From positions 13,165,019-13,229,018 of the forward strand of contig CM049306.1 in NCBI GenBank assembly GCA_026874595.1: a DNA stretch of 64,000 nt, written 5' to 3'. The stretch comes from Sipunculus nudus (Eukaryota > Annelida > Sipuncula > Golfingiida > Sipunculidae). Numbering within the stretch: position 1 is the stretch's first letter; every line of letters starts with the position of its first letter. Below, piece after piece: positions 54,101-63,100 of this stretch. Made by a program: the position numbers and the translations under genes. Below the pieces are notes generated by a model. The model was not told where the DNA came from. It made no database searches and worked only from the letters and a program-made list of their open reading frames with translations.

Positions 54101-57100
54101 ACCCACATATCTCGGGAACCGTTTGACCAATCAGGAAAATTTTTTTGCACAAATGTAGCCCTCGGGGAGCTTTATAACATACACCAAAAATGGTGGCGCC
54201 ATCTGCAACCATGTTTGCACAGTGTCCATCTGTTCGTCTGCCTTGGGTTAAATTCACTCATATCTCTGCAGTGACTTGACTAATTCACCTGAAATTGGGC
54301 ATGCGTAAACATCCTGGATAGCTTTTCTGATTTTATGACAGGTGGCGCCACCTACATTCACGTTTATGCTGCGGACATCCAAGCTCATATCTCGGGAACC
54401 GTTTGACCGATCAGGAAAATTCCTATGCACAAATGTAGCCCTTGGAGAGCTTTATAACATACACCAAAAATGGTGGCGCCACCTGCAACCATGTTTGCAC
54501 AGTGTCCATCTGTTCGTCTGCCTTGGGTTAAAATCACTCATATCTCTGCAGTGACTTGACTAATTCACCTGAAATTGGGCATGCGTATACATCCTGGATA
54601 GCTTTTCTGATTTTATGACAGGTGGCGCCACCTACATTCACGTTTACGCTGCAGACATCCAAGCTCATATCTTGGGAACCGTTTGACCGATCAGGAAAAT
54701 TCTTTTGCACAAATGTAGCCCTTGGAGAGCTTTATAACATACACCAAAAATGGTGGCGCTACCTGCAACCATGTTTGCACAGTGTCCATCTGTTTGTCTG
54801 CCTTGGGTTAAAATCACTCATATCTCTGCAGTGACTTGACTAATTCACCTGAAATTTGGCATGCATATACATCCTGGATAGCTTTTCTGATTTTATGACA
54901 GGTGGCGCCACCTACATTCACGTTTACGCTGCAGACATCCAAGCTCATATCTCGGGAACCGTTTGACCGATCAGGAAAATTTTTTTGCACAAATGTAGCC
55001 CTTGGAGAGCTTTATAACATACACCGAAAATGGTGGCACCACCTGCAACCATGTTTGCACAGTGTCCATCTGTTTGTCTGCCTTGGGTTAAAATCACTCA
55101 TATCTCTGCAGTGGTTTGACTAATTCACCTGAAATTCGGCATGCTTATACATCCTGGATAGCTTTTCTGATTTTATGACAGGTGGCGCCACCTACAATCA
55201 AGTTTACGCTGCAGACATCCAAGCTCATATCTCGGGAACCGTTTGACCGATTGGGCCAAAATTTTGCATGTGTATAAATCTCACATAGCTCTCTATCATA
55301 TGCAAAACTGGTGGCGCCACCTGCAGCCATGTTTGCAGAGCTCCCATCTGTTTGTCTGCCATGGGATAAAATCACTCATATCTCGGCAGTGGTTTGACAT
55401 ATCTGCCTAAAATTTTGCAAGTTTATACATCCCCGACAGGTCTCTTGATTTTATGACAGGTGGCGCCACCTGCATTCTAGTTTATGCAGCAGATATCCAA
55501 GCTCATATCTTGGGAACCGTTTGACCGATTGGGCCAAAGTTTTGCATGTGTATAGAGCTTTCTGGATTTTTTCGTAGGTAGTGCAACCTACATACACAAT
55601 TTGGCTGCAGACATCCATGCTAATATGCAACACTTCACCCGTTCCACTCTGATTTAGGCGGATACAAGTAGTCGCTTGTCGACTACCCGTATTCTAGTTT
55701 CAATGTAAAATTCAGTTTTTTCAGACTGTTGAAAAAATTTGATACTTTAGGCAAAACAACTTTTCAGGATTTGAATCCCAAGCTCAACATTGATTTAGTT
55801 TTTAGCTCAGCTGACTGAAATTCATCTGAGCTATAGCGATCACCCTTTGTCCGGCGTCTGTCCGTCCGTCTGTCTGTCCTTCCGTTAACCAGGCACAAAT
55901 GGTAACTGCTAGACCTGGAATCTACTAACTTGACATCCTGGGAGGTCCATAAAAAATCTCCTTGGAAACCTGAAATTAGGTCTCTGTTGCCCATATTCTT
56001 TGAGCTACGGGGCTCCAAAGTACCCTCCAGAATAATGAAAAATTTGATACAGAATCTCAAGTATCTGAACAGCTAATGCATTGATCACCATGATTTTTTG
56101 CATGGATATAGATCATGGAGTATTTTATCAGTTTCTGCAGACTGGTGCACCATATGGAATTTTTTCTGAATTTTTAAGCATGTTTTTCTCTATTTTTGTG
56201 ACCTTTTCAGATGCAGTTGTCTGTTTACAAGGCATAAATTGTTACTTCTGAGTGTTGATGAACTTGAGCTAATATGCATGAACTATGATGCCACCTACAT
56301 AATCTTAATCAGTGGCCTGTGCTAGGACATATTGTCAACATGCCAGTCGGCTGACCATCATGACCCAGGGGTCTCTTGTTTTAATATTCAAATGTGATTA
56401 TATAGTAGGATCTAATATAAGTGCTTATTGACATGTTTGAATATATAATAAGATGTAAATACTTTGTAGCATTTTATTCTTATGTGTTAAAGGTGGCTAG
56501 GCCATGGTATACATAACACTAGTACACTCAATTAATCAGATATATTGGGCAAACTTTCATGGGATCTATTTTTAGCTCACATGGCCATATATTTAACTGT
56601 GGAGAAATATTACATTTTCACATATCTTTGTTTTTGAAATGCATCCTTTCATATAATACTTTGGCCCATTACTATTCTTTTCCTTATTGCATCATTAAAT
56701 GGTCATAACACAAGTTTCATATATTACACATTACAGATGCAATGTATACCTAATTGGCTTGTTTTAACTTGCTTATCAAATTTGAGGTATGCTCAGGTGA
56801 AAATGGAAAATTTTGTTTACAGCATTTTATTTCATTTACTAAAATAAACGTTTTATTACGTAAACATAATTGTGAACGTAAAAAAAATATTATATTCACT
56901 TTTGAATACTTTTACATCACTGTCAAGACACTTATGACAATTATTAACATTATGGACATCATAATGAGAACTTGTCTTTAAGACCTGATTTTTTTTATCA
57001 GATTTTAAAAATTTTATTTTTTTTTTAATTTGTATCAGAAAAAAAGAAAATAATCTCTACTTCCAAACTAATACATGTGTTAAAAATAACCCAAGGATCA

Positions 57101-60100: not shown

Positions 60101-63100
60101 TGGCCCCCTGGATTTTTACCATGCTGGTTCACGCGGTCACGAGTTATCTCCGTTCACAGGGCATTTCTGTGCTCCCTTATCTGGACGATTGGCTGGTCCA
60201 TGCGGCCGATCGCTCCCTCTTACTGTTGCATCGCTCCCGGGTTCTCAACTTACTTCGGAACCTCGGCTTCCTGGTCAATGCGGAGAAATCTCTCCTCACT
60301 CCCACCCAGTCCCTCCAATTTCTGGGTGTCACACTCGATTTTGCGTCCGGCACAGCGTCGCTCCCGCGCGATTATGCGCTCAAGCTCCGCCTCCTAATTC
60401 GTTCCTTTCTCACGCGGAGCCGTGTCGGCTCGCGCACAGCAGCTTCTCTCCACGGTGCTCTCAACTGGGCCGCGTCTTTCATCCCGTTCGGCCAACTGTA
60501 CCTCCGTCCGATTGCGCCGTCACGGCCTTCTCGGGTTAACCTCGGTTCGTCCTACGATCCTCCCGTTTCAGAGCACCTGGCGGTCCCTTCGTCCCTGGAT
60601 GGACCTTTCCTTTCTCCTGCGCGGCGTTCCTTTTTCCAGGGCTGTCGATTGCACCGATGCGTCTCTCCTCGGTTGGGGGGCCCATCTCGCCGATCTTCGC
60701 CCTTCCAGGATATGGTCCCCGTCGGAACGTCTGCTCCATATCAATATCCTCGAACTGCGTGCCGTCCGTCGCGCGATCTCCCACTGGTCTCCCCGCTTGA
60801 TCACCTTCTCATCCGGACCGACAATACCACGGTTGTGGCCTATATCAACAAGCAGGGCGTTACTCGGTCTCCCTCGCTCATGCAGGAGACTTACCCTTTG
60901 TTCGATCTATGCCTCTCTCTCCGGGCATCAGTTTGTGCATCCCATCTTCCGGGCGTGTCGAACATCCAAGCGGACGCCCTTTCCCGTCATCCGGCGTCTC
61001 TTCCCTCCCCGCCGCTCCTTCCGCTCCCGGTTATTCGGAGGGTTTTTTGCTCGCCTGGGGCGGCCGGAATTCGATCTGTTCGATTTTCCGTCCCCCCCCG
61101 TTCTCGTGCCTTCCGCGACGCGTCTACGTCACCCTCGTGACCGTCTCCCCGACACGCCGCCGTCCGGGTGGTCTCACCGGTTTCTCTTTGCGTTTCTGGC
61201 ACCTCCTCTCATCCGCCGTGTCCTTCTCCGCTTGTCCCGCGCGGACCAGACTACCCTGCTTCTCATCCTCCCGTTTCAACCTGCGGCTCCATGGTTTCCT
61301 CTGTGGCGCTCGCTTCTCTCTCGCCCTCCGGTTATACTACCGCTCCGCATCACGCTCCCGTCGTTCCCTCGAGCGCGTCGCCCGTTTCGGTCGTGCCCTC
61401 TATGCGCATGCGTGATCTCATCGGACACCTCAAGGATCAGGGCATTTCAAGTCCTGCTGCTCTCCTTGCCTTGGCTCCCCGTCGCCGTTCTTCGGACCGC
61501 ATCTATGACTCCCGGTGGCGTCTCTTCACAGAGTGGGCATCTTCCCGCAGAATCTCCCCTTTAGATCCGTCGCTTGCGGCTGTTTTGGATTTCTTCGTGT
61601 TCTTACTGCAGGATAAACATTTATCCTATCCCTCTCTGCGTGGCTATCGCGCCGCCCTGCTGTTGGTGCTCCGTCCGCTGGGTCACAATCGTGTCCTTCA
61701 TCACCCGTTGGTGTCGGACTTTCTCAAGGGGGTTCATGCTCATGCGTCTCGTCCTCGGTATGTTGCGCCTTCCTGGCGCCTGGACGTCGTCTTACGTCAC
61801 CTCCGGGAACCCCCTTATGAGCCGTTGCGTTCGGCCCATCTTCTCCATTTGTCTCGGAAAACGGTTTTCCTCCTAGCTCTTGCCTCGGCAGGTCGCCTTT
61901 CTGAGCTTCATGCCCTCGTGGCTGATTCGAAATTCACGCAAATTGCGGCCGACGGTTCGTCGGCCACCCTACATTTTCCTCCGGACTTTTATCGGAAAAA
62001 TCAAAATATCGATGACCCTCCGTCTGCTTGGCACGTTCCGGCCCTCCCTAACGGTCAGTACCGTTATGGGGCTACCAATTGCCCGGTTCGTGCGTTGCGT
62101 TATTATCTCAAAGCTACTCATTCTTTAAGGGGGGGGGCGCAAGAAGTTGTTTATTTCTACAAAAGTCACATCTTCCAATAAAGAGATTAGCCCTATCACC
62201 ATTAGTGCGTGGCTCAAAGCTACTATAGTCGCCGCATATGAATCAGCTTCTCAATCCACATTAGACCAATTTCACATCAAGGCCCATGACATTCGGGCTA
62301 TTTCGACTTCCTTGGCCCATTTCTCCGGGATCTCACCCAATCAGTTGGTCAAGAAGGGATACTGGAAATCCCCATCTACGTTCACACGCTTCTATCTGAA
62401 AGATGTTCAGCTCCAGGCTTCGGGCCTCTACTCCATGGGCCCTGTGATCGCGTCGGGTGAGGTCCTACAATTTTCCAGGCCTTCTTCTTCCTCTCCGTCG
62501 GTCCTGCCACCGACGTCGACTGCTGCTCCATCACCGCACTGAGATTCCTCGTTCCTGCGTTACAGGTAGGTGCCCCTTCCCCAAGGCATGTCTGTTTTTT
62601 TCTCATTAATACAGAAACAGCTCACAATTATGTTTACGTAATAAAACCCCCCAATTCCCTCCCTGTGAATGGTGGTTTTGTTAGTAAACTGTTGTGAGCT
62701 TTTCTGTATTACAAACATCGCTCCCTCCCAGTCCTCTTCCTTACGCCTTCGAAAATGTGATTATGGGTAACGGAAGTGTGACCTAGATACACGGGAACGA
62801 GGCGGGATGGGCGATAATAGGCCCAATAAGGGAAAATTTTCGGTTGGCTTACTCTGGCGTATAAACTTTAACAGAGAAAATTCTCATTAATACAGAAAAG
62901 CTCGCAACAGTTTACTAACAAAACCACCATTCACAGGGAGGGAATGGGGGGGTTTAATGCTGCAGCTCATGTCCATTATTCTGTCATTTACAGGATTTTG
63001 TAAGTTCTCAGTTGATAAATTTACATGGATATTACAGACACTTAGTCGAAATACTGAAACTTTTACAAATACATGTTTGTGATCATGATAGGCTTCTCCA

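Follow-up and report, generated by a model that had tools for sequence, protein, structure and literature searches.

A DIRS1-like retrotransposon of Sipunculus nudus, probably broken and repaired with an inverted copy of a neighbouring repeat

The window analysed here is a stretch of 64,000 nucleotides from Sipunculus nudus (Annelida; Sipuncula; GenBank assembly GCA_026874595.1, contig CM049306.1, positions 13,165,019 to 13,229,018 of the forward strand), and all positions below are counted from its first base unless another contig is given. It contains a DIRS1-like retrotransposon in which 1.61 kb of foreign sequence stands between a short left-terminal stub and the gag-like region. This arrangement is very probably a one-off repair scar, left when a resident and decaying DIRS copy was broken and then patched from nearby DNA, and not a new mobile element. 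A sequence-only reading of the window had offered two explanations, template switching during reverse transcription and a later break patched with nearby DNA; the single-copy state of the junctions speaks for the second and against the first.

The patch and its source

Comparison of the window with itself aligns 56,879-58,488 with 50,689-49,080 over 1,610 columns at 99.94% identity, with no gaps and a single mismatch (58,079, T against C), and this is the sole pair longer than 500 bp and above 93% in the output. The inverted copy of 49,080-50,688 that the sequence-only reading had placed about 30 bp after the terminus is borne out by this alignment. The spacer between donor and patch measures 6,189 bp. 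At 56,876-56,878, where the patched copy carries a filler (Table 1), relatives of the DIRS element read GTGAGCTG, and donor-family copies continue uninterrupted with different bases; the A run at the left margin of the patch is donor sequence and not an added poly-A. The event left 1.61 kb inverted repeats flanking a 6.19 kb spacer, and recombination could invert the spacer.

The direction of copying can be read from six relatives of the donor (L003-L008), all of which continue past 49,080 and 50,689 with the donor's flanks, and for this reason 49,080-50,689 is taken as native and 56,879-58,488 as derived. The 5' edge of the donor element, at 49,005-49,006, is common to the same six relatives, and its 3' end was set by the match to 39,515-40,924 and by reading the sequence. 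The patch differs from the six relatives at 61-79 bases, against one for the neighbour at 49,080-50,689. Moreover, 36 of the 37 columns private to the donor are present in the patch, which indicates that it came from this neighbour, and recently; at the remaining column the patch agrees with all six relatives against the donor, so that either the donor has mutated since the copying or the copy was taken from another allele. Besides patch and donor there were 45 match rows, some of them pieces of one place, with a best full-length identity of 95%; a closer copy elsewhere in the genome is formally possible, as the best 40 of 13,295 candidates were scored. For the outer 100 bases of the patch the next-best copies reach 98% (best 40 of 2,611 and of 1,141). 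Judged by these alignments, the captured segment comes from the interior of a different repeat family, with one specific neighbour as its source.

Genome-wide search with the junctions

The whole genome (1.43 Gb, 153 contigs) was searched with both junctions. A 38-base pattern for the left junction and a 34-base pattern for the right, each allowed up to 3 mismatches, were found at one place apiece, the window locus, and the reversed controls gave none. As patterns cannot follow gaps, gap-tolerant alignment searches were added with queries of 201 and 130 bases across the junctions, and each again returned a single junction-spanning place, the window locus both times (best 40 of 2,611 candidates for the 201-base query and best 40 of 1,141 for the 130-base query). 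Scoring the best 40 is thought adequate because a place matching on both sides should outrank places matching on one. In the 201-base search the match at C2:79850602 (the L014 copy) extends 13 bases into the patch side at 92%, and by its sequence this extension is L014's own, resembling the end of the patch around CCAG. With 56,850-58,550 as query, the 46 other match rows, of which the donor is one, all stop short of the stub; one extends as far as the last filler base and one goes two bases into gag (best 40 of 13,295).

The sequence-only reading had suggested that many copies with both junctions would reveal a mobile chimera, a transposon capturing another transposon, and that a single copy would mean a local repair event. 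Each junction was found at one place only, by pattern and by gap-tolerant search alike, and the outcome falls on the side of local repair. The mobile chimeric transposon was accordingly rejected, its junctions having each been found at one place in these searches.

What the element lost

A search with gag, in which the best 40 of 446 candidates were scored, returned the window locus and 39 others, of which 29 (L014-L042) were compared as DIRS relatives and 10 weaker places left out. The 26 bases of the left end are identical in 22 of the 29 relatives and match at 25 of 26 bases in four more, with differing flanks before the initial G; they are absent from the fetched stretch in three (L015, L025, L035), and for L035 a wider fetch showed the 5' part further upstream, beyond an inserted repeat. 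In the 26 relatives keeping the left end, the distance from it to the base matching 58,489 is 1,023-1,158 bp (median 1,142). Of the four nearest relatives (L016, L014, L015 and L017), the three keeping the left end give 1,141, 1,143 and 1,143 bp, from which it follows that about 1,117 bp are missing in the window copy after its stub.

On the right-hand side of the loss, likeness to the relatives begins at 58,490 in four of five wider fetches, the exception being L044, where it begins at 58,476. L044, a wider fetch of the L014 copy, has a left inverted repeat of about 180 bp and a 562-codon open stretch that starts about 577 bp before the break point, which implies that the window copy is without most of its left inverted repeat and roughly 190 gag codons. 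The abrupt start of gag that had been placed at 58,488 holds as a boundary, and is better described as the edge of a truncated gag. When the lost 5' part, taken from L044, was searched for in the window and the next 4 kb, only inverted-repeat matches at the element's own right end were found.

In one relative, L045 (C4:88,058,200-88,064,300, the L015 copy), about 1.6 kb is absent between the positions matching 60,046 and 61,643, and the first part of the left end is also absent.

Relative age of patch and element

Against the 29 relatives, the window element carries 14 private substitutions in 1,199 aligned gag bases, the relatives themselves having 4-24 each, and its nearest relative differs by 4.2% in gag. 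None of the 1,610 bases of the patch carries a private change. Had each copy of the segment changed at the gag rate, about 19 differences per copy would be expected, and the probability of at most one in both together would be about 2e-15, a figure that serves as illustration only, given possible gene conversion and possible pre-insertion substitutions. The patch thus looks far younger than the element, and an event at or before insertion of the element would be very hard to reconcile with this age contrast.

Break repair and its alternatives

Under the repair explanation, a DIRS1-like retrotransposon would have inserted long ago and would already have been decaying when a double-strand break, the putative starting event, occurred near its left end. 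About 1,117 bp would then have been lost, comprising the bulk of the left inverted terminal repeat together with the leader and roughly 190 codons from the start of gag, and the ends would have been rejoined with a 1,610-bp inverted patch from 49,080-50,689 across the 6,189-bp spacer, leaving the 3-base filler. The patch was probably made by templated synthesis, either synthesis-dependent strand annealing or a microhomology-mediated replication switch, since an intact donor lies nearby; end joining with capture of a free fragment is the less likely route, and the data do not separate the two. A short motif, GCTCACAA, is interrupted by the left break; it is found again in the two internal complementary regions, in the right terminus (as GCTCGCAA) and, among the relatives, in the left terminus. 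It seems very improbable that the break arose at the left terminus from a recombinase-related nick or from an inverted repeat extruded there, such that DIRS elements seed their own destruction at this motif and neighbouring DNA serves as the patch.

Near-identical inverted copies 6 kb apart are a trouble spot in assembly, and the arrangement is read from the assembly and not from reads, so that a false inverted join has to be considered. It is judged very unlikely, since a misjoin would not readily account for the 3-base filler, the loss of 1.1 kb or the one base at which only the donor differs, and the contig spans 111 Mb. Template switching during the element's own reverse transcription, followed by insertion as a chimera, would suit the position of the foreign block, which separates the left terminus from gag in an element that keeps its two outer ends. 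It is hardly credible given that the donor family has thousands of first-look candidates and the inverted neighbour, beyond a 6,189-bp spacer, is by a wide margin the best match to the patch, that the junction searches gave no second chimera and that the patch appears much younger than the element. Among the papers listed in a literature search on chimeric DIRS elements and template switching, none was on the subject. Transposition of a donor-family member into the DIRS element does occur among the relatives (L051, the L017 copy, and L049, the L035 copy), but such nested insertion is very unlikely for a patch that contains neither family terminus (they lie 74 bases and about 2.6 kb beyond its ends), is near-identical to one neighbour and accompanies the loss of about 1.1 kb of host element, when none of the six compared donor-family copies begins or ends at 49,080 or 50,689. 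Nested transposition was rejected at the window locus, all six relatives running through the patch ends.

Several points weigh against repair of a broken resident copy. The left junction shows no clear microhomology beyond the ACG filler, and the right one only an imperfect, weak likeness to pre-existing sequence around CCAG. The state before the event is reconstructed from relatives, and not from an orthologous unpatched allele or a related species, and part of the 1.1 kb may have gone earlier. The age contrast is an upper estimate, as some of the 14 gag substitutions may predate insertion (an unsampled lineage), and the two inverted copies could have been homogenised by gene conversion, which would make the event look younger. 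The kind of contact is not unique either, for in three of the 29 relatives (L017, L025, L035) the donor family meets DIRS sequence at other junctions. Lastly, set beside the repair-mediated duplications in the parts of Pace et al. 2009 (PMC2671141) drawn on here, the deletion is about 1.1 kb against 1-15 nt, the 6.2 kb spacer lies just beyond the 5 kb that defines proximal cases, and the patch is longer than the proximal class.

Layout of the element

Table 1. Features of the patched DIRS1-like element and of its donor repeat in the window
Feature	Position	Strand	Basis or remark
Whole donor repeat element	49006..53252	+	begins TTAGCTCAGCTGAC, ends GGATCCCTTGTT
Donor of the patch, internal fragment of the longer repeat element	49080..50689	+	6/6 relatives run through both ends
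Left-terminus stub of DIRS1-like element	56850..56875	+	26 bp, exact reverse complement of 62,622-62,647
3-base filler ACG at left junction	56876..56878	+	matches neither element nor donor
Patch, inverted copy of donor fragment 49,080-50,689	56879..58488	-	1 mismatch in 1,610
Remaining gag-like region, 5' part lost	58489..59600 (end approximate)	+	broken over several frames
Open stretch of 586 aa, reverse transcriptase with presumed RNase H-like part after it	59380..61140	+	Pfam RVT_1
Putative tyrosine-recombinase-like region	61141..62542	+	two frames, overlap 62,129-62,181
Internal complementary regions	62600..62711	+	left 62,600-62,647, right 62,641-62,711, overlapping
Right terminus, inverted terminal repeat and right extension	62751..62958	+	matches to L044 left terminus and internal complementary region

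Inverted terminal repeats, overlapping internal complementary regions near the 3' end and a reverse transcriptase mark the element, on its sequence, as DIRS1-like, an assignment made because the order of left terminus, gag-like region, reverse transcriptase, recombinase-like region, internal complementary regions and right terminus matches the description in the part of PMC3266345 drawn on here. The left terminus at 56,850 had been recognised in the sequence-only reading by a 26-bp perfect complement, which stands; in a control of 3,000 61-mers (starts below 48,000, target 62,501-62,960 inverted) the longest exact match was 12 bp. Judged by the relatives' left ends, the left internal complementary region is 48 bp long, of which the window copy's left end keeps 26. 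At the other end, 62,888-62,958 agrees with inverted 62,641-62,711 at 68 of 71 positions (95.8%), and 62,751-62,928 with the inverted left terminus of L044 at 94.5%. The right edge, earlier put at 62,952, is refined to about 62,955, alignments ending at 62,952, 62,955, 62,958 and 62,963 in four of the five relatives compared; that of the fifth, L047, ends at 62,605. No target site duplication was evident at the edges of the window copy and some relatives, empty sites not being among the sequences compared.

Within the 586-residue open stretch, Pfam RVT_1 is matched at residues 156-319 (E 9.3e-22). The following part we take to be RNase H-like, a label given by eye and without a family match, and the H-x-x-R and Y residues of the recombinase-like region were likewise picked by eye as presumed catalytic-type residues of a tyrosine recombinase. 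Neither the gag nor the recombinase region had a Pfam match, pieces given to NCBIfam had none, and the recombinase piece compared with PDB sequences found no recombinase, only chance-level matches to ribosomal proteins. A search of viral contigs for sequences related to part of the reverse transcriptase produced nine pattern matches, none of which was confirmed.

Other contacts between the two families

The donor family is very abundant, and contacts with DIRS elements are therefore expected. The window itself holds two long members, 36355-40924 and 49006-53252, with GTCC-rich 5' ends and conserved termini, and a further member seems to begin at about 53,258, directly after the second. Donor-family sequence occurs in six of the 29 DIRS loci (L017, L018, L025, L027, L035 and L037). 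In L018 and L027 it is upstream of the element and stops before or at the left end, and in L037 it is a 43-base match well upstream.

The remaining three are direct contacts, and none copies the window fusion, since each has its own junction coordinates. Inside the L017 copy (L051:5232-7140, in C1:56,236,000-56,244,730) a 1.9 kb member, complete with both termini (TTAGCTCAGCTGAC and GGTCCCTTGTT), lies within a T run and looks like an ordinary nested insertion. In the L035 copy (L049:6500-8944) about 2.4 kb of donor-family-like sequence interrupts the 5' part of the element; the likeness ends about 11 bases before the family terminus, and the DIRS alignment lacks about 49 bp at that point. The L025 copy (L050:1415-1506), in which the first approximately 185 bp of DIRS are absent and a donor-family 5'-terminal stretch abuts the remainder, is a second, different fusion of the two families.

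Comparison with known systems

With the DIRS1-like retrotransposons, as described in the same part of PMC3266345, the element shares inverted terminal repeats, two overlapping internal complementary regions, a right extension, a reverse transcriptase, a recombinase-like region and a left end in GTT; unlike them, it is missing the greater part of its left inverted repeat as well as the 5' portion of gag, and carries an unrelated patch.

For the event itself, the closest likeness is to repair-mediated duplications. In the portion of Pace et al. (PMC2671141) used here, which concerns vertebrate genomes, 39 of 39 inspected proximal cases had filler or microhomology and none a poly-A tail, most also carrying a deletion or other mark; the proximal cut-off of 5 kb was ad hoc, the maximum length was 619 for proximal and 3,424 for distant cases, and deletions were of 1-15 nt. 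Like these, the window event copied nearby DNA into a transposable element, left filler and a deletion at the receiving site and added no poly-A. The insertion lies within a transposable element, is at least 50 bp long and has a donor that can be identified elsewhere, and its breakpoints show a 3-base filler and a deletion of about 1.1 kb without an added poly-A/T tail. At 1,610 bp it exceeds the proximal maximum and falls within the distant class, and its donor, unlike theirs, is itself repetitive. It works like a repair-mediated duplication but would not have entered that set, given the 6,189-bp spacer and the 45 other match rows.

Microhomology-mediated break-induced replication and templated insertion, as presented in the parts of PMC2621351 and PMC11724301 drawn on here, likewise share a templated insertion or duplication tied to a break or copy number change. 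The templated insertions of PMC11724301 are there mostly very short, against 1,610 bp for the window patch, and the window data do not separate microhomology-mediated break-induced replication from strand annealing. Most likely the event is of an already known sort, a repair-mediated duplication; it would be one entry in a survey of such repairs and not a discovery, and what it offers is a well-dated example of a transposon break patched with an inverted neighbour, in which donor, filler, deletion and relative age are all readable.

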